In this document: positions 5,336 through 31,964 of the stretch, piece after piece
How positions within the stretch are numbered: the stretch's first letter is position 1
How the letters are laid out: each line of letters starts with the position of its first letter
From: Verrucomicrobiia bacterium
GTDB lineage: Bacteria > Verrucomicrobiota > Verrucomicrobiia > Limisphaerales > UBA11358
DNA length: 46,460 bases
Direction of reading: 5' to 3'
Assembly: GCA_025451535.1 (NCBI GenBank)
Contig: JANWKE010000002.1
Coordinates: forward strand, 1-46,460
Translations under genes and position numbers: made by a program
The notes under the pieces: model-generated
Seen by the model: only the letters and a program-made list of their open reading frames with translations
Databases searched by the model: none
What the model was told of the DNA's origin: nothing

Positions 5336-6193
5336 TTACGCTGGTTGCGGAACTCGATTGCCCGGCTCAATGCGCGGCGAACTTTCCCAGGCCACCATGG
5401 TGCGTTTGCGAATTTGTCCCCAGTGATAATTCCCCATCACGCCTGTCTCGCGAATGACGCGATGACAGGGGATGAGATAGGCCAGCGGATTTTGTCCCAC
5501 GGCGGCGCCCACGGCCCGCGAGGCGGCGGGTTGGCCGATCGCCGCCGCCAATCGGCCATAACTGGTCAGCGCACCCGGCGGGACTTGCAGCAACGCCCGC
5601 CAGACGCGTACTTGAAACGGCGTGCCCTGCACAAACGCGCGCAGTGCCGGTCGTGTAAGTGAACCGTTTGGCCGCGCGAAAATTTTTGCGGCGAGCCGGG
5701 CGGCGGCGGAACTATCCCGTTTCAATTTTGCCTGTGGCCAATTGTTTTGCAGTTCGACCAGGGCCCGCTTTTCGTCTTCCACAAACGACAAATGGCAGAT
5801 GCCACGCGGGCTTTCGGCGATGACACATGCTCCAAACGGGCTGTCCACAAAGCCAAACAAAATCGTCCAGCCCGCGCCGCCGGATTTCCATTCGCCGGGC
5901 GACGCGGCGTCCAGATTCACGCAGAGATCGTGCAGTCGTCCCGGTCCGGACAGGCCGGATTTCAGCGTGACATCCAGAACACTTTCGCCTTTACGGAGCA
6001 ACTCCTTCGCGTGAGCCAGCGTGAGACATTGAAGAAAATCCTTGGGTGTGACGCCCGCCCAGGCAGAAAAGAGCCGGTGCAGATGGAACGGACTCAAACT
6101 CGCGCGTGCCGCCAAAGTCGCCAAATCGGGCTGCTCAGCATGACGTTCGTTCAAATAACAGATCATCCGGGCAATGCGTTCGTAATCATTCAT
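5336..6193 (-). CDS. AraC-OGT fusion: methylated-DNA-[protein]-cysteine S-methyltransferase
   Basis: A 285-residue protein with an N-terminal AraC-type helix-turn-helix (about residues 2-100; the motif SPFHLHRLFSAWAGVTPKDF is clear) and a C-terminal alkyltransferase domain. The active-site motif is PCHRV, with Cys243 as methyl acceptor, preceded by the conserved GxAVGxNP region. It repairs O6-methylguanine by irreversible methyl transfer to its own cysteine. It has the architecture of E. coli Ada minus the N-terminal zinc-bound phosphotriester-sensing domain, so it may not act as an inducible regulator in the same way. The frame extends upstream to a GTG at 6229, but the ATG at 6193 (MNDYERI) gives a normal AraC start. 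Confidence 0.88.
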   Translation of the reverse strand: MNDYERIARMICYLNERHAEQPDLATLAARASLSPFHLHRLFSAWAGVTPKDFLQCLTLAHAKELLRKGESVLDVTLKSGLSGPGRLHDLCVNLDAASPGEWKSGGAGWTILFGFVDSPFGACVIAESPRGICHLSFVEDEKRALVELQNNWPQAKLKRDSSAAARLAAKIFARPNGSLTRPALRAFVQGTPFQVRVWRALLQVPPGALTSYGRLAAAIGQPAASRAVGAAVGQNPLAYLIPCHRVIRETGVMGNYHWGQIRKRTMVAWESSPRIEPGNRVPQPA

Positions 6194-6296
6194 GTTCTCA
6201 CATTGCCACGAGACAACGGTTGCTCCCACCCGTTTCTTGCGCCATTTATTCCCTTTCGTTGGCGGGGAGCGGGAGAAGATTCCCGCGTAAGTCGAT

Positions 6297-7400
6297 TTAT
6301 TTCACCGTGATCAGTCCGGCTTCTGTTCTGCAACCCTCTTGCCCGCAGCCGCAATCATTTTCGGCCTGATCACTAAAACCGTGGCGGTCCCAGCCGGGAT
6401 CCAGGCCGAGGTCCTTGAGCATCTGCAAATCCCTTTCGACGGGCTGGTTCAGCGTGGTGAGATAGTTGCCCACCATGAGCGCGCTCGCACCGGCCAGAAA
6501 AATCATGCTTTGCGCGTCACGGAGGTTCACGGTGCGGCCGCCGGCAATCATGATTTCCTGCCGCGGCAAAATGAGCCGGAAGCAGGCGATGGTCTTCAAA
6601 ATTTCCATGACCGGCAACGGCGGATTATTTTCAAACGGCGTGCCTTTGATGGCGTTGAGAATGTTGATGGGCACGACATTCGCGCCGACGGCTTTGAGCG
6701 CAAAGGCCATATCGCAGCGGTCCTCGCGAGTTTCGCCCATGCCGATGATGCCGCCGGAACAAATCTTGATACCGGCTTTTTTCAAATAACCGATGGTTTC
6801 GAGGCGGTCATCATAGGTATGCGTGGTGCAGGTTTGCGGGAAAAAGCGGCGCGAGCTTTCGAGATTATGACCGTAGCACTCGACGCCGGCCGCTTTGAGC
6901 CGGTCGGCAACCTTCTGGCTTTTGATAATGCCCAGCGAAACATCGGGACGCGTTTTGCCGCTGGCTTTCAATTCGCGAATACGGTCGCAAACCTCGTCGA
7001 GCATCGGACCTTCGTTCAAGCCTTTCCAGGCGGCGACCAGGCCGACGGCGGTAACCCCGTTTTTGCCCGCTTCCTCGGCGGCTTCCTGGACCGGTTCCGG
7101 ATCAACAAAACCATATCGGGGTGAGCCGGTCTGGTAGAACGATGATTGCGCGCAAAAACTGCAATTCTCCGAGCACGCGCCCGCCTTGGCGTTGACAATG
7201 GAACAAAGGTGGATTTTGTTGCCTTTGAAATGCTCGCGAATCCGGTTTGCCCAGGACAACAAATCAAAAATGTCGGCGGTGTTTTCGAGTTGAAAGAGCC
7301 ACCGGGCCTCGTCGCGGGTGATGCTCCCGCCGTCCAGCACGCGCCGGCCCAGCCCGGCAATGTGCCCGTGTTTAGTTGCGTCAACCGATTCAACCGTCAT
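6297..7400 (-). CDS. bioB: Biotin synthase
   Basis: A radical-SAM enzyme of 367 residues that inserts sulfur into dethiobiotin, the last step of biotin synthesis. The SAM-cluster motif C-S-E-N-C-S-F-C places the 4Fe-4S ligands at Cys76, Cys80 and Cys83. Typical BioB stretches follow, including YGFVDPEPV, GLVAAWKGL, YGHNLESSRRF and IPINILN-like VVPINILNAIKGTPF. The conserved MIAGGRTVNLRD segment is also present. The C-terminus carries a Cys-rich tail (NDCGCGQEGC) before the last 11 residues, slightly longer than many BioB proteins. No other bio gene is nearby, so it is probably a solitary gene downstream of lepB (76-nt gap). Confidence 0.97.
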   Translation of the reverse strand: MTVESVDATKHGHIAGLGRRVLDGGSITRDEARWLFQLENTADIFDLLSWANRIREHFKGNKIHLCSIVNAKAGACSENCSFCAQSSFYQTGSPRYGFVDPEPVQEAAEEAGKNGVTAVGLVAAWKGLNEGPMLDEVCDRIRELKASGKTRPDVSLGIIKSQKVADRLKAAGVECYGHNLESSRRFFPQTCTTHTYDDRLETIGYLKKAGIKICSGGIIGMGETREDRCDMAFALKAVGANVVPINILNAIKGTPFENNPPLPVMEILKTIACFRLILPRQEIMIAGGRTVNLRDAQSMIFLAGASALMVGNYLTTLNQPVERDLQMLKDLGLDPGWDRHGFSDQAENDCGCGQEGCRTEAGLITVK

Positions 7401-7476
7401 GATTGACAGCCTAGCATCTGAGATAACGGACGCAAGCGGGGATTACCGAAATCAGCCGGGAGTTGGTCGGCCAACC

Positions 7477-7974
7477 TTATTCGATCACTTTGCCGAGAAT
7501 ATCCTGGCGCGGCACTGCCCCGAAAACCCGGCTGTCCAGGCTGTTGTTGCGGTTGTCGCCCATGACAAAATATTTGTCGCCGAAGCTGATAATTTCGTTC
7601 CCATCCCGATCGTAGGCATAAGTGGGCGTCCCGGGCAAAAGATAGGGTTCGCGCAATAACCGGCCATCCACATAAACCTTGCCATTCTTGAGGCAAACAA
7701 ACTCACCGGGGGTGGCAATGATACGTTTGACCAGAAGCATATTATCTTGCGGATCTCTAACGGCAACGATGTCATCACGTTGCGGTTCACTTACCAAATA
7801 GCTATACCGATCCAGCCAATAGTGTCCCGAATTTATGAGTGTGGGGTACATGCTATCACCTACAACCTGGACGGATTGAATAACAAACCGGCTGAACAGC
7901 AAATAACTAAGCCCCGACAGCGCTAAAATCATTGCCAGACTGCAACAATGACGGAAAAACCACGACCAAGACAT
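7477..7974 (-). CDS. lepB: Signal peptidase I
   Basis: A short signal peptidase I (S26 family) of 165 residues from the preferred start. It cleaves signal peptides from exported proteins at the outer face of the inner membrane. One transmembrane segment (about residues 12-32) precedes the catalytic serine in GDSMYPT, and the general-base lysine lies in LLVKRIIA. Box E is GDNRNNSLDSR. The frame is open back to 8121, but a promoter-like sequence at 8056-8083 would place the transcript start near 8049, so only the ATGs at 8043 and 7974 are realistic. The latter puts a normal short cytoplasmic tail before the membrane segment. Confidence 0.9.
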   Translation of the reverse strand: MSWSWFFRHCCSLAMILALSGLSYLLFSRFVIQSVQVVGDSMYPTLINSGHYWLDRYSYLVSEPQRDDIVAVRDPQDNMLLVKRIIATPGEFVCLKNGKVYVDGRLLREPYLLPGTPTYAYDRDGNEIISFGDKYFVMGDNRNNSLDSRVFGAVPRQDILGKVIE

Positions 7975-8055
7975 TCGCAAACGCCAAACTTTCAAATAAA
8001 ACGCTAAAATTCCGGAGAACTTCTTAACGGCAAGGTACGTCATATCCACATTTGA

Positions 8056-20116: not shown

Positions 20117-20144
20117 ATTTACGATTTACGATTTACGATTTACG
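20117..20144. repeat. Heptanucleotide array (4 x ATTTACG), intergenic
   Basis: Four perfect ATTTACG units in tandem, abutting the start codon of the exonuclease gene (minus strand), so they occupy its ribosome-binding region. A second periodic sequence, TTTGGACTTTGAACTTTGGAC, follows at about 20209-20229. Both fall between the exonuclease and the thioredoxin-like gene. Confidence 0.85.
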
Positions 20145-20250
20145 AGCTTTTTCACAACTCGCCCAGGTCTCGTAAAAATCGCGGATCAAAACTCATAAAC
20201 CCGGAAAAATTTGGACTTTGAACTTTGGACCTCGGACTTATATTCCCTGC

Positions 20251-20826
20251 ATGGCATTGACACCTTCGACCATGCTGCCGCTCGGCACGACAGCGCCTGA
20301 TTTCAAGCTGCCGGATACCAATGGAAAGATCGTCGTCCGGGCGGACTTTAAGGACAAGTCCGCGCTGCTGGTTCTGTTCATCTGCAATCATTGTCCCTAT
20401 GTGAAGCACATCCGCACCGGCCTGGCGCAACTCGCGCGCGATTACTCGCCCCGCGGCGTTGCCATTGTCGGCATCAATTCCAACGACGTGGCGAATTATC
20501 CCGAGGACAGTCCCGCGAAGATGAAAGAGGAAGTGAAATCTGCGGATTACACTTTCCCCTACCTTTACGACGAATCGCAGGCCGTTGCCCAAGCCTACCG
20601 CGCCGCCTGCACACCGGACATCTACCTCTTCGACCAGAACCGCAAGCTCGTTTATCGCGGCCAGTTTGACGACAGCCGTCCGGGCAACGGCGTCCCCGTG
20701 ACGGGAAAGGATTTGCGCGCCGCGCTGGATGCCATACTGGCCGGCAAGCCCGTTTCGCCAAACCAAAAAACCAGCATGGGCTGTAGCATCAAGTGGAAGC
20801 CTGGCAACGAACCAGACTATTTTTGA
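20251..20826 (+). CDS. Thioredoxin-like AhpC/TSA-family protein
   Basis: A 191-residue protein with a peroxiredoxin/thioredoxin-like fold. It begins LGTTAPDFKLPDTNGK, the usual AhpC/TSA entry, and carries a CxxC active site, CNHCPYVK (Cys45 and Cys48). It continues with AIVGINSND and CTPDIYLFD, where a cis-Pro is expected. This matches a widespread family of cytoplasmic 'thioredoxin family' proteins of about 190 residues with unknown partners. The ATG at 20251 is preferred; an upstream in-frame TTG lies within a repetitive stretch. No signal peptide is seen. Confidence 0.87.
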   Translation: MALTPSTMLPLGTTAPDFKLPDTNGKIVVRADFKDKSALLVLFICNHCPYVKHIRTGLAQLARDYSPRGVAIVGINSNDVANYPEDSPAKMKEEVKSADYTFPYLYDESQAVAQAYRAACTPDIYLFDQNRKLVYRGQFDDSRPGNGVPVTGKDLRAALDAILAGKPVSPNQKTSMGCSIKWKPGNEPDYF

Positions 20827-20979: not shown

Positions 20980-22083
20980 ATGATTGTCGAGGAAAACCAA
21001 ACCGAAACGGGAACAGCCCGCCGCCGGCATTCAGCCCCGCAGATTCTGGAAGAAATGGTTCGTCAAGCCGAACGTGCCGGAGCGAGCGACATCCACCTGC
21101 AGATGCGTGGCAAATCTGCCGAGATCGGTTTCCGGCTCGACGGGCTTATTGTTTCCGGCAACGAACTTGCGGCTGATGTTGCCGACCGCGTTTTCGGCCG
21201 GATCAAATTTCTGGCACGCTTGAAAACATATCAGGAATCGTTGCCACAGGACGGTCGGATTGCGCACGACGAGCTCGGAATCCAAAACGACATCCGCGTT
21301 GCCACCTACCCCACGGTCACCGGCGAAAAAATTGTCCTCCGGCTTTTCAACTCGTCTTCGGCGAAATCGCTCCGCGAACTGTCCCTGCCCGCAGCCGCCG
21401 GGACCGAACTCGAACATTTTCTCCGGCAATCCACCGGCCTGCTGTTGCTCACCGGTCCGGCCGGCAGCGGCAAAACGACGACGATTTATGCCTGCCTTCG
21501 ACATCTTGCCGGCCTCGGCGGACGCCACATCATAACGGTCGAAGACCCGGTGGAACAGATTGTTCCCGGCACGATGCAAACCGAAGTCAACGAAGCAATC
21601 GGCCTTGATTTTGCCCGCGCAGCGCGGCATTTGTTGCGACAGGATCCGCAGGCACTCATCATTGGTGAAATCCGCGATGAAGCCACCGCGCAACTCGCCG
21701 TCCGTGCCGGCCTCACCGGGCATCTGGTGATTTCCACGCTGCACGCCGGCTCGTGCCGTGGCGTGTTCGAGCGGCTGCTGGCGATGTGTGCCGATCATTC
21801 CGCCGTGGCGAGCGCCGTGGAATTGGTCTTGAACCAGCGCCTCATCCGCAAACTCTGCCCGGCGTGCAACGGCGGGGGGTGCGAAACCTGTTTACAAACC
21901 GGCTATCAGGGCCGGGTGCCGCTGGTCGAGTGGCTGCGCGTAAACGAAAAAATGCGCGAACAAATCCGCCGGCGCGAACTGTCTTCGCTCATCCCGGCAC
22001 AAACTCTGGAAGCTTCGGCGCGCGTGTTGGTGGAACAGGGTGTAACAAACGAAGCGGAGTTCAAACGAATTTTCGGCTTATGA
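20980..22083 (+). CDS. GspE/PilB-like assembly ATPase lacking the N1 domain
   Basis: A 367-residue secretion ATPase. The N2-like domain opens with GASDIHLQ, followed by Walker A GPAGSGKTT (159-167), the Asp box around ITVEDPVEQ, Walker B ALIIGEIRD (225-233) and the His box STLHAG. A zinc tetracysteine, CPAC (293-296) and CETC (301-304), marks it as GspE/PilB rather than PilT. Typical GspE proteins have about 500-570 residues; here the N-terminal domain that binds GspL is absent. It would drive assembly of the pseudopilins encoded downstream. Its stop overlaps the next start (ATGA), so translation is coupled. Confidence 0.9.
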   Translation: MIVEENQTETGTARRRHSAPQILEEMVRQAERAGASDIHLQMRGKSAEIGFRLDGLIVSGNELAADVADRVFGRIKFLARLKTYQESLPQDGRIAHDELGIQNDIRVATYPTVTGEKIVLRLFNSSSAKSLRELSLPAAAGTELEHFLRQSTGLLLLTGPAGSGKTTTIYACLRHLAGLGGRHIITVEDPVEQIVPGTMQTEVNEAIGLDFARAARHLLRQDPQALIIGEIRDEATAQLAVRAGLTGHLVISTLHAGSCRGVFERLLAMCADHSAVASAVELVLNQRLIRKLCPACNGGGCETCLQTGYQGRVPLVEWLRVNEKMREQIRRRELSSLIPAQTLEASARVLVEQGVTNEAEFKRIFGL

Positions 22084-23090
22084 AAAACGACGAATTTGCC
22101 TTTTTTAATCAACAGCTCGCCGCGATGTTGCGCGATGGCATTCCGCTCGAAGGCGCCTTGCGGCGGCTCTGCGAGGAAATGCGCCGCGGGACCTTGCGTG
22201 ACGAATTGCAGGCGCTCGAGGCCGGCCTGGCCAAAGGCACACCCATTGCCGAGGCGCTGAAAGCGCGCCGGCTCCCCGAACTTTATAAACGGATGATACT
22301 CGTCGGTGTCAAAAGCGGCGATCTGCCCGGCGCGTTGACGATGCTGGCAGATTATTTCCAGCGGCAGAACGACGTCTGGACGCGGCTCAAAAGCATGATG
22401 ACCTACCCGCTCATCGTGATGTTCGCCGCATTTTTGATTTCGACGCTCATCGCCCTGCTCTGGACCTGTGTCATCGGGCCATCTTTCAGGGACGTGTTTT
22501 CCGGCATGAACATTAGGCTCCCCGCAGCCACCTTGTTTGCGTTTGCAACGCTGCGAATTATTTGGGTTTTCCCGGCCGTGCTTGGTGTTCTGTTCTTGCT
22601 CGCCGGGTTCGTGGTCTTTCAGCCGGCGCTGCGCGGAAAATTTCTCTGGCGGCTGCCCGCCTTCAAGGAAGCCACCGTCTCACGCGTTGCCTCCGCGTTG
22701 ACCTTGCTGCTCAAAAACGGTGTTCCCCTTCCGGAGGCCGTCGGCCTGGTGGAACAACTCGAAAACAGTACTGCCGCGGCCGCAGATTTGCGGCAATGGC
22801 GAAATCGGCTCGCCGCGGGCGTCGCAACATTTTCCGAGGTCGCCGGCACCAATCGCATGATCCCGCCGCTGTTTGTTTGGGTTGTGGCCAGTGCCGGCGA
22901 AAACCTGGCCGCCGGGTTTAATCGCGCGGCGGAAATTTACCAGGCGCGCGCCATCTATCGCACCGAAGTCGCCCTGTTCTCGGTGTTGCCGGTAGCGTCG
23001 CTGTTTTTGGGCGCCATCGTCATCTCGCAGGCGTTTCTGGTCATCAGCATGTTTTTGCCGCAGATCGCCATGCTGTCCGACTTGAGCTGA
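22080..23090 (+). CDS. GspF-like inner-membrane platform protein (first copy)
   Basis: A 336-residue protein with two T2SSF domains. The first contains FFNQQLAAMLRDGIPLEGAL and MILVGVKSGDLPGALTMLADY; the second RVASALTLLLKNGVPLPEAV and VVASAGENLAAGFNRAAEIY. Hydrophobic helices lie near residues 103-125, 140-180 and 305-330. GspF/PilC proteins form the inner-membrane platform that couples ATPase motion to pseudopilus growth. It starts in a 4-nt overlap with gspE. It is followed 9 nt later by a second, divergent GspF gene. Confidence 0.9.
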   Translation: MKNDEFAFFNQQLAAMLRDGIPLEGALRRLCEEMRRGTLRDELQALEAGLAKGTPIAEALKARRLPELYKRMILVGVKSGDLPGALTMLADYFQRQNDVWTRLKSMMTYPLIVMFAAFLISTLIALLWTCVIGPSFRDVFSGMNIRLPAATLFAFATLRIIWVFPAVLGVLFLLAGFVVFQPALRGKFLWRLPAFKEATVSRVASALTLLLKNGVPLPEAVGLVEQLENSTAAAADLRQWRNRLAAGVATFSEVAGTNRMIPPLFVWVVASAGENLAAGFNRAAEIYQARAIYRTEVALFSVLPVASLFLGAIVISQAFLVISMFLPQIAMLSDLS

Positions 23091-23099
23091 TTTGATTTT

Positions 23100-24260
23100 A
23101 TGGCCGATTTCTCCCAGGTTGTGTTCGACTTTTTCTGGTTTACGATTTTGATTCTATTGCCGGGCGGCGCGTTTGCCGTGCTGTTGCATTTCCTGCTCTC
23201 GCTGCCCATGCACCGGCGTGATCGCGCGCTTTTCTTCCTCGACCTGTTGGAAACCGTCTTGCAGCGCGGCCAGCCGGTGGAACCGGCCATCATTTCCGCG
23301 GCGGAGAATCACGACCGGGGCATCGGCGTCCGCTTTTTCATGGTCGCCGCGCATGTCGAAGGTGGCGCGCGGCTGGACGGGGCGTTGGAAGAAGTACCGA
23401 CGTTTCTGCCGCCGCAGGTCAACGCCATCCTCCACGCCGGTGGAAAACTCGGTGACCTGAACAGGGTTTTGCCCGCCTGTCGCGAAGTGTTGCGTGTCGC
23501 GCCAGATACCGTCCGCACCACCATGTACTACATGGTGGCCATCCTGATGCTGTTCGCGCCGATTGCCATCGGCCTGATTGGTCTCCTGTCAACCTTTGTC
23601 ATTCCAAGATTCAAGGCAGTGGCTGAGGGGACGGGTGCCAGGTTGTGGCCGCTTACGACGTTCGTGTTCGGGCTCAACAATTCACACATTCTGGTCGGTT
23701 TTGAGGTCCTGGTCTTCCTCGCCCTGGCCACGGTGGTATTGATTTACCTTGGCGGACCCGGCTTTGTCCGGCGGTTTCAATTCCGCCGCGTTCCCGTCGT
23801 GGATTGGATCACCTGGCACGTGCCGTGGAAGCGGAAGAAATTGCTGCGAACCTTCTCGGCCATGCTCGCCGTATTGCTGGACGGCGGCGTGCCGGAAGCC
23901 GAGGCGGTCCGGCTGGCCGGCGACTGCACCGTCAACGAAATCGGCCAACGCCGCGCCCAACGTGTGATCACCGCGCTGGAGCAGGGAACGAAGCTCAATG
24001 AGGCCGTCCGCGCCTTCGACGACAACGGCGAGTTTCACTGGCGGCTGACGAACGCGATCCATGGGGCCGGGACGCGCGGCGGATTTCTGCGCGCGCTGCG
24101 CGGCTGGCACGAGGCGCTTGAGGCCAAGGCCTTTCAGCAGGAAGAAACCGCCACGCACGCGTTGACCAGCGGCCTGGTAATTCTGAACGGTCTGGTGGTG
24201 GCTTTGATTGCAACCGCGATGTTCGGCCTGTTGATAGCCATCTTGAGAAACGAAATGTAA
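23100..24260 (+). CDS. Second GspF-like platform protein
   Basis: A 386-residue protein with the same double T2SSF plan but clearly different sequence from its neighbour. It has an extra N-terminal membrane segment (FFWFTILILLPGGAFAVLLHF, about residues 11-31). T2SSF-type stretches are FFLDLLETVLQRGQPVEPAI, ILHAGGKLGDLNRVLPACREV, TFSAMLAVLLDGGVPEAEAV and IHGAGTRGGFLRALRGWHEAL. Two GspF proteins side by side suggest a heteromeric platform, whereas standard type II systems have one. Its end is 5 nt before the first pseudopilin gene. Confidence 0.85.
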   Translation: MADFSQVVFDFFWFTILILLPGGAFAVLLHFLLSLPMHRRDRALFFLDLLETVLQRGQPVEPAIISAAENHDRGIGVRFFMVAAHVEGGARLDGALEEVPTFLPPQVNAILHAGGKLGDLNRVLPACREVLRVAPDTVRTTMYYMVAILMLFAPIAIGLIGLLSTFVIPRFKAVAEGTGARLWPLTTFVFGLNNSHILVGFEVLVFLALATVVLIYLGGPGFVRRFQFRRVPVVDWITWHVPWKRKKLLRTFSAMLAVLLDGGVPEAEAVRLAGDCTVNEIGQRRAQRVITALEQGTKLNEAVRAFDDNGEFHWRLTNAIHGAGTRGGFLRALRGWHEALEAKAFQQEETATHALTSGLVILNGLVVALIATAMFGLLIAILRNEM

Positions 24261-24265
24261 ATATC

Positions 24266-24658
24266 ATGAATATAAAATTGTCACGGTTGCCCCCGGTCAG
24301 ATTTCACCGCAAACATGGTTTTCTGACGATGGATTTGATTATTGGCATGGCGATTCTCGTGGTGGCCTTCATGCCTCTGGCATTTTCATTTGTACATGAA
24401 CGTCAATTGCTCCGCGCGGAATATCTTCGTGCCGTCGCCGTGGAAATTGTGGATGGTGAAATAGAAATCCTGGCCGCGGGCGAATGGCAGAATCTTCCTG
24501 AAGGCCAGCAGGCTTACACAGTTCATGCGCAGGCCTCTGGCAGTTTGCCGCCCGGCCATTTTCAGTTGACGAGGACCGGAAAACATTTGCGCCTCGAATG
24601 GAAATCAGACAAACCGCGCGGCATTGGAATCGTCGTCCGTGAAATCACCGTCAAATGA
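24266..24658 (+). CDS. Pseudopilin-like protein with Asp at position 5
   Basis: A 130-residue protein. A positively charged leader (to HG) precedes FLTMDLIIGMAILVVAFMPLAF, a type IV prepilin-like cleavage site (G|FLTMD) and hydrophobic helix. Mature position 5 is Asp rather than the usual Glu that pairs with the N-terminal amine during assembly. The rest is short, with beta-rich content, close in size to minor pseudopilins of the GspI type. It lies in the gspE-F-F operon and overlaps the next gene by 4 nt (ATGA). Confidence 0.75.
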   Translation: MNIKLSRLPPVRFHRKHGFLTMDLIIGMAILVVAFMPLAFSFVHERQLLRAEYLRAVAVEIVDGEIEILAAGEWQNLPEGQQAYTVHAQASGSLPPGHFQLTRTGKHLRLEWKSDKPRGIGIVVREITVK

Positions 24659-25161
24659 AACTCTCGCCCCCCATCTCCTCCGCGCGTGTTCGAACCGGCT
24701 ATCTTTTGTTGGAGTGCCTGGTTTATATCGCCGTTTTCGCCGTCATCACCGGGTTGGGGCTGACCACGTTCTATCTGTGCTGGGATAACTCGAAGGCGTT
24801 GCGGCTTACTACGGACGACGTTGCGGCCGCCTTGCGTGCGGGTGAACGCTGGCGCGCAGACATTCGCGGCACCACTGGAAAAATTACTGTCGAGCACACG
24901 GCAACCGGTGATCTCCTGCGCATTCCTTGTGGAACCAACGAAATCCTCTACCGTTTTACAGACGGTAAAATCCGCCGCCAATTGGCGTCATCGGGATTCG
25001 CCGAGCCTGTGCTGAACGCCGTCAAGGCCTCGCAAATGGTCATAGACACGCGCGGGACTGTGACTGCGTGGCGCTGGGAACTGGATCTGAAACCCCACCG
25101 CAAGGTAACGCATTTGCCGCTGCAATTTACCTTTGAGGCGGCGACCAAAACCGCACCATGA
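24655..25161 (+). CDS. Pseudopilin-like protein (GspJ-type size)
   Basis: A 168-residue protein with a prepilin-like N-terminus: leader ending RTG, then YLLLECLVYIAVFAVITGLGL. The cleavage site is G|Y with Glu at mature position 5, followed by a long hydrophobic helix. The globular part is beta-rich and ends in charged residues. Order and size fit a GspJ-like minor pseudopilin, but the assignment to J rather than H is by position only. It overlaps both neighbours by 4 nt. Confidence 0.75.
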   Translation: MKLSPPISSARVRTGYLLLECLVYIAVFAVITGLGLTTFYLCWDNSKALRLTTDDVAAALRAGERWRADIRGTTGKITVEHTATGDLLRIPCGTNEILYRFTDGKIRRQLASSGFAEPVLNAVKASQMVIDTRGTVTAWRWELDLKPHRKVTHLPLQFTFEAATKTAP

Positions 25162-25394
25162 AAACTTCCTTGGCTGATCTTTCCCCACGTCGCCGGCAGG
25201 ACGGTTCCACCGTCCTGGTTTTGATCACGTTGCTGGCCATCATGGTGATGTTGGCCACCGCCAACAGCAAAGCCCTTTTCCATCTGCATCGGGAAATCAA
25301 GCTGTTGGAAACCCGGCAGATTCAGCGTCTGAACGCCTCGCCATCCAACAATGTGATTGTGGCCGAACCGCCGGTGAAACTGGAATCAAAATGA
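25158..25394 (+). CDS. Short GspK/PilX-like prepilin-type protein
   Basis: A 78-residue protein. The leader ends RRRQDG, followed by STVLVLITLLAIMVMLATANSK. The pattern of a charged leader, Gly, then a hydrophobic helix without Glu5 recalls the N-terminus of GspK, the tip pseudopilin that lacks Glu5. Normal GspK has about 300 residues, so if it is related it has lost its globular domain. The remaining tail is charged and ends LESK. Overlaps of 4 nt at both ends tie it to the operon. Confidence 0.6.
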   Translation: MKTSLADLSPRRRQDGSTVLVLITLLAIMVMLATANSKALFHLHREIKLLETRQIQRLNASPSNNVIVAEPPVKLESK

Positions 25395-25660
25395 ATGCCG
25401 ACATCGAAGCCAAAATACAGATGCTGAAAAGCTCGCTGGAATGTTTCGTATTCGGATTACTGGGATTGTTGCCACTCATCGGATTTCCCTTTGCCATTGC
25501 GGCACTCGTGATTTCAGGGAAGGTCCGCGTCCGGCAGAGGAAATACTGGAATGCAGCCAAGCCCTACTGGATCGCCGGGGTGGCGTGCGGCTGCATGGGA
25601 ATGCTCTTGTGGGGTGCCGCCTGGATTTTGATCCTATTTAACCTGGTAAGCCACGGTTAA
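25391..25660 (+). CDS. Two-helix membrane protein ending the pseudopilus operon
   Basis: An 89-residue protein with two hydrophobic segments (about residues 18-43, FVFGLLGLLPLIGFPFAIAALVISG, and 61-85, WIAGVACGCMGMLLWGAAWILI) joined by a basic loop, KVRVRQRKYW. This resembles small DUF4190-like two-helix proteins. Its ATG overlaps the preceding stop by 4 nt, so it belongs to the operon. It could substitute for a GspL/GspM-like membrane component, but that is only a guess from position. Confidence 0.6.
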   Translation: MNADIEAKIQMLKSSLECFVFGLLGLLPLIGFPFAIAALVISGKVRVRQRKYWNAAKPYWIAGVACGCMGMLLWGAAWILILFNLVSHG

Positions 25661-25764: not shown

Positions 25765-26331
25765 TTATTTTCGGGGCAGTTTTTCTTCCACGATCTCGCA
25801 GAGCACGTGCATCAGTAACTTGTGGCCCTCCTGAATGCGTGCCGTCTTGTCACCCGGCACCAGCAGATCCAGCGTCGCCACGCCCTTGGTAAACCCACCA
25901 TCACGACCCAGGAAACAAATGCTTTCAACACCCTTGCGTTGGGCCTCTTCCAGCGCGCGCAACACGTTCCTGGATTTGCCGCTGGTCGTTAACGCAATCA
26001 GCACATCGCCTTTCCCGGCCAGACCGCGAATCTGGCGCGCAAACATTTCGTCAACGCTGTAATCATTGCAGACGGCGGTCAGGAATCCGCCATCGGCGGC
26101 CAGAGAAATGGCCGGATAGGGCCGCCGGTCTTCCACAAAGCGGCAGAGAAACTCCGAGGCCAGGTGCGTGGCGTCCGACGCGCTGCCGCCGTTGCCGCAG
26201 GTGAACACCTTGTGGCCGGTGGTCAGACAACGTAAAACCATCTGGGCGGCGCGGTTCAGCGGTTCTTCCAAATCCGCAAGCCCGCGGCAGGTTTTGACGG
26301 AATCTTCAATCGCCCGTTGCAAGAGAGTCAT
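25765..26331 (-). CDS. gmhA: Phosphoheptose isomerase (sedoheptulose 7-phosphate isomerase)
   Basis: A 188-residue SIS-domain isomerase that converts sedoheptulose 7-phosphate to D-glycero-D-manno-heptose 7-phosphate, the first step to the ADP-heptose of lipopolysaccharide core. Visible features are VFTCGNGGSASDATHLASEF, NDYSVDEMFARQI and LTTSGKSRNVLRAL (sugar-phosphate-binding Ser/Thr), and a C-terminal EGHKLLMHVLCEIVE helix with metal or substrate-binding residues. The length is normal. It diverges from an orphan prepilin gene with only about 40 nt between their likely starts. No other heptose gene is in the window. Confidence 0.93.
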   Translation of the reverse strand: MTLLQRAIEDSVKTCRGLADLEEPLNRAAQMVLRCLTTGHKVFTCGNGGSASDATHLASEFLCRFVEDRRPYPAISLAADGGFLTAVCNDYSVDEMFARQIRGLAGKGDVLIALTTSGKSRNVLRALEEAQRKGVESICFLGRDGGFTKGVATLDLLVPGDKTARIQEGHKLLMHVLCEIVEEKLPRK

Positions 26332-26372
26332 GCGTGCAAAGTTAATGGTTGGCCGTTGAAAGAAAAGGCGAA

Positions 26373-27173
26373 ATGAAGTATGGCTTGAGTATGGCCAGCC
26401 CGTATAAAAATTCGGCCTTCACCTTGATTGAACTTCTGACGGTCATCGCCATCATTGGAATTCTGGCGGCGCTCCTGTTGACAGCCGTTGCCAAAGCCAA
26501 GGTAAGAGCGTTGCAAATCCAGTGCGCCAATAACGTGGGGCAACTTGGATTGGCTTTGCATGAGTTTGTGACAGACAACAGTGTTTATCCTCTGTACGTA
26601 AAACCAAGTTGGATATTCGCCCTACAACAAATCGAACTTTCACAAACAACAAATCACGTCAATGCCAGTGTGTATTTGAGCCAAGGTTTTTGGAAATGCC
26701 CTGCCGTCAAGAAACCGGCCGACTGGCCTGAAAAGATAATATACACCAGTTACGGATACAACACTTACGGCATGAGCGCCCAGACGGATACAAATTCTCT
26801 CGGACTTGGAGGACATTGTGTTTGGGACTTCCCGAAGAACACACGGTACACCGCCCCGCCGGTGAGGGAGGCAGAAGTTGTGGCTCCAAGTAAGATGATG
26901 GCCATTGGCGATGGGTTTGAAGGTGACAGTAGTACCATCCGCGATGGAGTAAATTTTTTATGGCGACATGATAACGTGGAGAACTATCTTGGAAGCAAAC
27001 TCGGAAGCACACAAAGAGCTTACGCAAGACATCAAGGTCGTGCCAACGTGGTGTTTTGCGACGGCCATGGCGAATCGCCAACGCTGAAATTTCTTTTTGT
27101 TGATACCAGCGACACCGCTTTGGTGCGTTGGAACCGCGACCACCAGCCCCATCGCGAAAAATTGTCGCCCTGA
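26373..27173 (+). CDS. Prepilin-type protein with C-terminal H-x9-DG signature
   Basis: A 266-residue protein from the ATG at 26373. The N-terminus has a prepilin cleavage site with Ala at -1 ([10 protein letters not shown], Glu5 present) and the helix [17 protein letters not shown]. The globular part ends with [13 protein letters not shown], the H-x9-DG signature of a family expanded in Planctomycetes and Verrucomicrobiota. Such proteins are thought to be pseudopilins of an uncharacterised type II-like system. It stands alone, separated from the pseudopilus operon by gmhA. An earlier in-frame ATG at 26349 and a later one at 26391 are alternatives. Confidence 0.85.
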
Positions 27174-28486: not shown

Positions 28487-29158
28487 ATGCCGCGAGATCG
28501 GGCATTTACACTCATCGAACTGCTGGTGGCGATGGCGATTATTGCCATCCTGGCCGCGTTGTTGTTGTCCGTCATTGGCCGCGCCAAGGCCTCGGCGCAA
28601 GGGCTCACCTGCCGGAATAATCTCAGGCAATGGGGACAAGCCACCCAACTGTATGCAGCGGATCATGGAGATCACCTGCCCCAGGAAGGCCGCTCCAATC
28701 CTCCATTAATTCCACACGTAGCGATGGACACCAACAGTTGGTATGTAATACTCCCCCAAACCATCGGTTTGCCTTCGTACTACGACATGCCTTGGCGCTC
28801 CAATTTACATGCCAACCTGGGACATTCGATTTGGATTTGTCCTAGCAACCGCAGGCGCAGTAACGGTAACAACCTCTTTCATTACTGCTTAAACGAGCAT
28901 GTAAATGGTACGGGGGGAAGCAATAGTTCAATACGACTGGTTTCCGTTCCACATCCAACAGTCGTTGTTTGGCTGTTCGATAACGGGGGACTCGCGGCGG
29001 TAGCGCAATGGAACAATGTTCACTCCAATTTGCACAGTCACGGGGCGCAATTCACATTTCTCGATGGTCACGTCGCGTGGTTCAAAAATACGGAATATTG
29101 GAATTTCAGAACCAACAAAGGCCTGACCAACAATCCAAAACTGGTCTGGTTCCCTTGA
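28487..29158 (+). CDS. Prepilin-type protein with H-x9-DG signature (second copy)
   Basis: A 223-residue protein starting [13 protein letters not shown], so the leader is only six residues with Ala at -1 and Glu5 present, followed by VAMAIIAILAALLLSVIGRAK. The C-terminal region has H-SHGAQFTFL-DGH, the H-x9-DG motif. It is a paralogue of the 26373 protein with a diverged middle. It stands alone between a HAD gene and the secreted EEP protein and converges tail-to-tail with the latter (1 nt between stops). Confidence 0.87.
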   Translation: MPRDRAFTLIELLVAMAIIAILAALLLSVIGRAKASAQGLTCRNNLRQWGQATQLYAADHGDHLPQEGRSNPPLIPHVAMDTNSWYVILPQTIGLPSYYDMPWRSNLHANLGHSIWICPSNRRRSNGNNLFHYCLNEHVNGTGGSNSSIRLVSVPHPTVVVWLFDNGGLAAVAQWNNVHSNLHSHGAQFTFLDGHVAWFKNTEYWNFRTNKGLTNNPKLVWFP

Positions 29159-31259: not shown

Positions 31260-31964
31260 TCAGCGCCTGGTTATAAATTCCGGTTGAGAATATTTCTGGC
31301 GGACTAATGCTTCCGTCCGTTTACGCAATGGCTCGTCCGGCTCGAAATCCGACCATTCGACCCCAAAAACGGCCTGGGCGACATCGCACATTGCCTGTTG
31401 CCAGTCCGTTCGGACCAGCGGAACCGGTGGCTGGACCGAGCCCTGGATCAACAACCCCAATTGGTTGCGGCGTTGGGCCGCACCCGCGATTTTTTTCCCC
31501 TTCCAAAGCAGATCAGATTTCACGTGGCCCACAAAACACGCACCGGGAATTTCCGATTTCCGATTTCCGATTTCCGATTGGCGACAGCACGGCGCGAGTC
31601 CGGTTTGGATCTTCAATTCAGCGAACGCCAGGCTTAACCATTCGTGGATGCGCCGGTAACTTGCCTCGGCCTTGAGCGAATGCCATTCGTGATCCGGCTG
31701 AAAGGTCAGGCTATAGGTCCAGTCGGCGTCATGCGGCACGATGCCGCCGCCGGTGGGCCGGCGAATGAGCGGCCGCAACAACGTCGCGCGTTCCACGTCT
31801 GCATATTTCTGGAAATAACCGAACGTCGCCGCCGGCTCCGTCCAGCCGTAGAACCGCAGCACCGGCCGGCCGAGGCGCGCCGCAGCCTCCAGTAATGCCT
31901 CATCCAAGGCCATGTTGTCCGCCGGACTGCCTTTACCGGAATTGAGTAAAAACCAGGAATCCAT
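31260..31964 (-). CDS. Lipoate/octanoate ligase-family protein (LplA/LipM-like) with repeat insertion
   Basis: A 234-residue BPL/LplA/LipB-superfamily protein. RRPTGGGIVPHDADWTYSL (residues 68-86) is the lipoyl/octanoyl-binding motif, and KGKKIAGAAQRRN carries the conserved adenylate-contacting lysine. It likely attaches lipoate or octanoate to carrier domains; a ligase and an octanoyltransferase cannot be told apart here. Residues about 129-140 (QSEIGNRKSEIP) are encoded by a four-unit ATTTCCG array (31549-31576) and sit in the loop before the CFVGHVKSDLLW segment. The ATG at 31964 is used; a GTG at 31973 falls within another repeat. Confidence 0.82.
   Translation of the reverse strand: MDSWFLLNSGKGSPADNMALDEALLEAAARLGRPVLRFYGWTEPAATFGYFQKYADVERATLLRPLIRRPTGGGIVPHDADWTYSLTFQPDHEWHSLKAEASYRRIHEWLSLAFAELKIQTGLAPCCRQSEIGNRKSEIPGACFVGHVKSDLLWKGKKIAGAAQRRNQLGLLIQGSVQPPVPLVRTDWQQAMCDVAQAVFGVEWSDFEPDEPLRKRTEALVRQKYSQPEFITRR
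31549..31576. repeat. Heptanucleotide array (4 x ATTTCCG) inside the lipoate ligase-like gene
   Basis: Four perfect ATTTCCG units plus a partial ATT. The array lies inside the coding sequence and is translated in frame. It has the same unit length and copy number as at 16491-16518 (inside hom) and 20117-20144 (intergenic). Confidence 0.85.

Follow-up and report, generated by a model that had tools for sequence, protein, structure and literature searches.

A compact, probably type II-derived operon with two full platform proteins behind one assembly ATPase in Limisphaerales-type Verrucomicrobiota

In the window, a 46,460-nt stretch of DNA from a Verrucomicrobiia bacterium (GCA_025451535.1, contig JANWKE010000002.1), seven open reading frames at 20980-25660 on the + strand form a compact operon, E-F1-F2-p4-p5-p6-p7, in which one GspE-type assembly ATPase is followed by two full GspF-type platform proteins. 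In the open-access literature we found no account of a system that pairs one ATPase with two full platforms, and our analysis supports the proposal of an initial annotation of this sequence that the set may be an undescribed variant of the type IV filament superfamily. The interpretation we favor, which we regard as about equally likely to be right or wrong, is that the operon encodes a type II-derived inner-membrane endopilus motor together with a tip initiator, which draws its major pilin and prepilin peptidase from elsewhere in the genome and has no secretin of its own. The genes are as follows.

20980-22083, + strand: E, 367 amino acids; GspE-type assembly ATPase with N2E, RecA-like core and short zinc element
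22080-23090, + strand: F1, 336 amino acids; GspF/PilC platform protein with two T2SSF domains
23100-24260, + strand: F2, 386 amino acids; second full platform protein with two T2SSF domains
24266-24658, + strand: p4, 130 amino acids; GspI-like minor pseudopilin by predicted fold
24655-25161, + strand: p5, 168 amino acids; GspJ-like minor pseudopilin by predicted fold
25158-25394, + strand: p6, 78 amino acids; helix-only prepilin-like protein at the GspK place
25391-25660, + strand: p7, 89 amino acids; small membrane protein with two predicted transmembrane helices

One ATPase and two platform proteins

The genes are joined by junctions of -4, +9, +5, -4, -4 and -4 nt, with an ATGA overlap at four of the six; F1 starts with the ATG at 22080, within the ATGA that terminates E. 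With p6 as a putative K, their order is that of gsp E-F-(G,H)-I-J-K, F2 occupying the G/H place and C, D, L, M and O being absent from the cluster. Neither a secretin nor GspC, GspL, GspM or a prepilin peptidase is encoded within the operon, and only E, F1 and F2 have Pfam matches above cut-off, p4, p5, p6 and p7 having none. The initial annotation had described seven tightly coupled genes for a GspE lacking its N-terminal domain, two divergent GspF proteins, three pseudopilin-like proteins and a two-helix membrane protein, with GspC, GspD, GspL, GspM and the prepilin peptidase missing. The reading frames and measured junctions bear out this layout, down to the missing genes and the two predicted helices of p7; the platforms are indeed divergent, being full-length, 30% identical and each in a clade of its own, and the three pseudopilin-like proteins can be refined to candidate GspI-, GspJ- and GspK-like proteins.

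E matches Pfam T2SSE with 307 bits (1.5e-91). Its best NCBIfam match is GspE, at 310 bits against a cut-off of 630, ahead of ComGA (231 bits) and TadA (31 bits); scores against the named ATPase models for pili and secretion are all far under the curated cut-offs. By sequence it also matches solved GspE and PilB structures in the PDB, EpsE best. The match begins at about residue 113 of GspE, so that the N-terminal domain, N1E, is missing as first proposed, and it is missing from every aligned member of the E family. According to one report, N1E interacts with GspL (PMC8134430); an ATPase without N1E fits the lack of GspL in the cluster. About 25 zinc-domain residues are also missing relative to the solved GspE and PilB structures, the zinc loop having collapsed to CxxC-x4-CxxC as opposed to CxxC-x26..31-CxxC. 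This cysteine spacing is 4 in 20/20 family members, compared with 26-31 in GspE/PilB-type references (including HofB) and 41 in plasmid PilQ. Walker A, the Asp and His boxes and the four cysteines are invariant in the family alignment, and the E relatives form one clade with support of 100/100.

F1 and F2 match Pfam T2SSF at 3.6e-30 and 8.9e-17, respectively, each over two stretches. Since each carries two T2SSF domains, we rejected the idea that F1 and F2 are one split gene. Hydropathy predicts three transmembrane segments in F1, which has no N-domain, and the same three segments plus one at the N terminus, four in all, in F2. Across the GspF/PilC superfamily, a Tyr-Pro in transmembrane segment 1 (TMS1) and a Glu-Pro in TMS3 are described as conserved and as lining a channel, a motif in which PulF tolerates single Cys changes but not a double change (PMC10790770). 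The reference platforms in our alignment carry Tyr-Pro in 7/7 and Glu-Pro in 6/7 cases. F1 proteins keep Tyr-Pro (21/21) and the second Pro (20/21), with Leu, Met or Phe taking the position of the TMS3 Glu (Glu in 0/21). In F2 proteins the Tyr is present in 16/20, the TMS1 Pro in 0/20 and the TMS3 Glu-Pro in 0/20. F1 and F2 have thus lost the channel motif in different ways. Together with the loss of N1E and the lack of GspL and GspM, these altered motifs lend indirect weight to the earlier suggestion of an inner-membrane coupling different from that of classic type II secretion.

In trees, the F1 relatives form one clade (100/99) and the F2 relatives another (99/96), and E, F1 and F2 sit on long separate stems. 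F2 groups with plasmid PilR, at a risk of long-branch artifact, and F1 and F2 may or may not be sisters. The two genes are adjacent in every locus seen. Behind the operon of locus L131 lies a second F1-F2 pair (5746-8006); the two F1 copies of this locus are sisters, as are its two F2 copies (100/100 each), and the simplest reading is that the pair was duplicated together. G020 contains a second F1-F2-p7 set (L072, 738-3225); there, a probable assembly break separates L099 from L072, and L072 opens with the C-terminal end of a reading frame like p5. The set in L072 ties p7 to the F1-F2 pair. With co-duplication as the main argument, we suggest that F1, F2 and probably p7 act together.

Might F1 and F2 instead be alternative homotrimeric platforms that take turns on one ATPase, for example for assembly and disassembly? 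Since each has two T2SSF domains, either could fill, on its own, the 6:3 motor of a published model (PMC10790770), and the two have diverged differently in the channel motif. However, the Glu-Pro motif is kept by neither, and their constant adjacency and joint duplication are a better fit to a fixed stoichiometry, leaving this alternative unlikely.

Two short GspF genes were considered as extra copies of the operon and rejected as orphan genes. One, at G000:C45 (L087 5612-6616, - strand), encodes 334 amino acids beside accC- and aroQ-like genes and has kept Tyr-Pro and lost Glu-Pro, with no ATPase or pilins nearby. The other, at G000:C22 (L088 5790-6767, + strand), is very divergent, with a branch length of 4.2.

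The pseudopilins and the parts encoded elsewhere

In family alignments, p4 has a class III prepilin signal with Asp or Glu at +5 and p5 a class III prepilin helix with Glu5. When the AlphaFold2 model of p4 (predicted local distance difference test score, pLDDT, 84) was compared with known structures using VIA-align, GspI chains filled the top seven rows (Z 7.8 to 6.0), with other pilins ranked below them; the p4 sequence had no match in the PDB. Although these Z scores are middling, the unanimous ranking and the position of p4 ahead of p5 make a convincing case for a GspI-like predicted fold. The p5 model (pLDDT 90.8) matched GspJ chains at Z 12.0 to 11.1 (EpsJ 12.0, XcpW 11.9), followed by a Thermus pilin at 10.8, the best non-pilin row scoring 5.4; by this predicted fold, p5 is a GspJ-like minor pseudopilin. 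With Foldseek, a GspI complex chain came out on top for p4, but neither p4 nor p5 had a significant match, so both fold assignments rest on VIA-align.

Where cleavage would be expected, aligned p6 proteins usually have a small residue; a hydrophobic helix follows, and there is no globular domain. Glu is at +5 in none of them, and p6 matches no profile in Pfam or NCBIfam. The GspK of the type II secretion system (T2SS) also lacks Glu5; this and gene order point to p6 as a putative GspK-like protein. The p7 family has a conserved WNPA motif along with its two predicted helices, and a weak match to DUF4190 below the Pfam cut-off.

Another possibility is a minimal pilus, similar to that of competence (Com), by which a diderm would take up DNA. 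The Com pilus also combines an ATPase, a platform and pilins and does without a GspC/L/M-type complex (PMC10191384), and p5 has a weak match to ComGF (7e-4). We consider this very improbable, given that the p4 and p5 folds match T2SS GspI and GspJ, that there are two platforms as opposed to one ComGB and no ComGC-type major pilin, and that E scores better with GspE than with ComGA (310 versus 231 bits).

Statements about the whole genome rest on family searches, and classic parts on other contigs were assigned from family matches, lengths and N-terminal sequences only. The genome-wide search for a secretin and a prepilin peptidase that the initial annotation had suggested found both outside the operon: one prepilin peptidase gene (PF01478, C147) and four secretin genes over cut-off. 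Classic T2SS parts are scattered, with E-F-G-H on C120, F-H-I-J-K on C110 and E-L-M-D on C75, and the only GspG is that on C120. Type IVa pilus genes are also present (PilB/PilT/PilC-type on C103 and PilM/N/Q-type on C9). Within the genus, GspG occurs in 25/26 operon-bearing and 19/23 operon-less members (Fisher p = 0.17), a distribution that allows supply in trans without proving it. We rejected a tie between the operon and extra secretins, since the raw difference between the 26 and 23 genus members was gone after genome size was taken into account (t = 0.81); a tie with the number of DUF1559 prepilins, counted as first-look candidates, was rejected in the same way (t = 0.27; 26 versus 23).

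Near the operon, two prepilin-like genes lie on the same strand. The first (26349-27173) matches DUF1559/H-X9-DG profiles, and the second (28487-29158) resembles it by its N terminus only. No recurring prepilin neighbor of the operon was seen in relatives.

Given these classic parts, one alternative is that the operon is an accessory module of the genome's T2SS, providing a different motor and tip that dock on C-D-G-H-L-M and secrete special proteins. In favor of this alternative, the I-J-K tip is the part of the T2SS thought to meet the substrate. However, E has lost the domain that docks on GspL, secretin counts show no link to the operon when genome size is allowed for, and the stems of E, F1 and F2 are long and separate; we therefore doubt that the operon is such a module.

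Conservation and genomic setting

Searching with F2 gave clear relatives in roughly half the members of the genus, and others in additional families of the order, whose bacteria live in soil and water. In 26 regions around F2 matches, the same genes occur in the same order with near-constant lengths (E 354-370, F1 mostly 323-340 and p5 mostly 162-177 amino acids across loci), and the -4 overlaps are kept at p4/p5 in 24/26, p5/p6 in 21/23, p6/p7 in 19/23 and E/F1 in 19/26 loci. At E <= 1e-25, the F2 profile matches 125/320 genomes of the order, from 60/118 genera; a few of the 125 matches are fragments, and that in G623 is probably an ordinary GspF. Among 387 genomes sampled across the phylum, F2 matched only in the window genome and in one genome of another class, in which F2 was found in 2/197 genomes.

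A scan of GTDB contigs gave 37 loci, many titled Limisphaerales, Verrucomicrobia subdivision 3 or Pedosphaera. The titles of two metagenome-assembled genomes (MAGs) as Akkermansia muciniphila and of one as Methylacidimicrobium were taken as record labels only. A Planctomycetota-titled MAG contig (L166) carries E-F1-F2-p4-p5-p6, which could reflect horizontal transfer, an older origin or a misbinned contig. Exceptions to the order among spanning contigs are E displaced downstream (L081/L161 and L086) and p7 placed before F1 (L162), and p6 or p7 went undetected in a few distant loci. GspC, GspD, GspL, GspM and GspG were absent from the recurrent neighbor families (those shared by at least 4) of 40 loci.

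The initial annotation had asked whether the gene order is conserved or the genes are simply scattered paralogues of a normal gsp cluster. Many families of Limisphaerales-type Verrucomicrobiota share the order, and E, F1 and F2 form clades of their own even though classic parts exist elsewhere. A T2SS operon in decay, or a chance gathering of paralogues, would account for the many missing T2SS genes and for p6, a stub next to GspK. It is hardly credible, however, given that gene lengths and order hold steady over many families, that the catalytic residues do not vary and that the set is cleanly present or absent.

The presence or absence is seen from two flanking genes outside the system.

20242-20826, + strand: AhpC/TSA redoxin gene on the left, by Pfam
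25765-26331, - strand: SIS-domain phosphoheptose-isomerase-like gene on the right, a conserved neighbor

In operon-bearing members of the genus, the whole block lies between the AhpC and SIS genes. In four operon-less members (L186, L188, L191 and L192), the two genes are 10-100 bp apart, and the SIS gene of operon-less relatives, beside the AhpC gene, is 72-75% identical. Since the flanks abut where the operon is missing, the set is present or absent as a whole, whether through loss or because it was never acquired. No operon remnants were found in operon-less relatives, the longer gaps in L187, L189 and L190 holding unrelated open reading frames. The window also contains 7-bp perfect tandem arrays at 20117-20145 (ATTTACG x4) and 31549-31579 (ATTTCCG x4).

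Upstream of the operon and on the same strand, 14/40 loci (L063, L064, L065, L067, L071, L074, L075, L077, L078, L080, L083, L145, L152 and L158) have a gene for an extracytoplasmic function (ECF) sigma factor (Sigma70_r2 and r4_2). Its carriers include members of the window's genus and, with L083, at least one further family. In 10/40 loci, a protein of about 116 amino acids with a single transmembrane segment and a conserved 'DEHGLHYLVAE'-like tail is encoded between the sigma gene and E; it matches no family, and from its position and size we consider it a putative anti-sigma factor. The two genes suggest that, in some relatives, the operon is switched on by an envelope signal. In the gap of the operon-less L189, tblastn with the sigma query gave a single match of 18 residues (E 5e-4).

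A possible endopilus motor and its relation to known machines

How might such a set work? We start from the gene content, the predicted I and J folds, the conservation of the set, the co-duplication of F1 and F2 and the presence of a peptidase, GspG and secretins elsewhere in the genome. In the endopilus interpretation, E would form an ATPase hexamer and F1 and F2 would jointly form a mixed platform above it, in one complex, with p7 as an accessory of that platform. The I-like p4, the J-like p5 and the helix-only, K-like p6 would make up a minor-pseudopilin tip that starts a short filament. The body of the filament would be a major pseudopilin supplied in trans, most likely GspG and otherwise one of the many DUF1559-type prepilins, and the prepilin peptidase would likewise come from elsewhere. 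With no dedicated secretin, the filament may work within the periplasm or make use of a secretin from another system.

Several points weigh against this interpretation. Contact between F1 and F2 is presumed, and p6 is a GspK candidate by gene order and lack of Glu5, not by fold. No major pilin is found within the operon, none is linked to it by synteny, and the presence of GspG is not significantly tied to the operon (p = 0.17). The sigma gene is absent from the window, and no sigma or anti-sigma remnant was found there.

It is possible, although we lean against it, that the operon represents a separate, undescribed class of machine, defined by an obligate hetero-oligomeric platform of two full-length, two-domain proteins, no canonical channel motif, a periplasmic endopilus without a pore of its own and, in part of its range, ECF control. 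E, the F proteins and the I/J folds clearly belong to the known superfamily, whose features the operon shares in its GspE/PilB-class ATPase, T2SSF platforms and class III prepilins (p4 and p5), with the peptidase in trans only.

Among known systems, the T2SS (E. coli K-12 gspC-O, NC_000913) shares with the operon a GspE-type ATPase, a GspF platform, the GspI and GspJ folds and, with p6 as a putative K, the order E-F-...-I-J-K. Unlike the T2SS, the operon is without C, D, G, H, L, M and O, has a second full platform at the G/H place, an ATPase with no N1E and a 4-residue zinc loop, a putative K reduced to a helix and the extra p7; the single GspF of the T2SS has Tyr-Pro and Glu-Pro, whereas the motif is altered in both operon platforms. 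The Com pilus of monoderms (ComGA-GG) is similarly compact: its cluster encodes an ATPase, a platform and pilins and lacks both a secretin and a GspC/L/M-type complex (PMC10191384). The operon differs in its two platforms, its GspI/J-like pilins, its lack of a ComGC-type pilin and a host genome with secretins. The type IVa pilus differs in that PilM-N-O-P, PilQ and PilT are all absent from the operon. Paired platform genes are known in Tad and some archaeal systems (PMC6668835). The Tad (type IVc) pilus, like the operon, has two platform genes and one ATPase gene, but gene fission has left a single T2SSF domain in each of TadB and TadC (PMC6668835), whereas F1 and F2 have two each, and E is GspE-like, not TadA/CpaF-like (31 bits with the TadA model). 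A T2SS-derived machinery of protist mitochondria, as far as passages of one report describe it, is likewise reduced, with a GspE without N1E and no GspL; it keeps GspD and GspG, and nothing equivalent to the second platform or to I-J-K tip genes is described there (PMC8134430).

Outside Tad, the platform protein carries two T2SSF domains (PMC12019362), and current motor models, PulF3-PulE6 (PMC10790770) and the predictions for ComGB and CpaGH (PMC10191384, PMC12019362), assume a platform made either of three copies of one protein or of three pairs of single-domain proteins. Two unlike two-domain platforms do not fit this picture, and would require either a mixed particle or one motor that serves two platforms. 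For the coupling of a six-fold ATPase to pilin extraction through the platform, and for how such motors are built, the paired-platform set offers a natural test. The loss of Tyr-Pro/Glu-Pro is relevant to the question of whether the platform needs the ion channel that has been proposed for it. Finally, the operon suggests that a motor and tip may be inherited as a unit, apart from the secretin, GspL/M and the major pilin.

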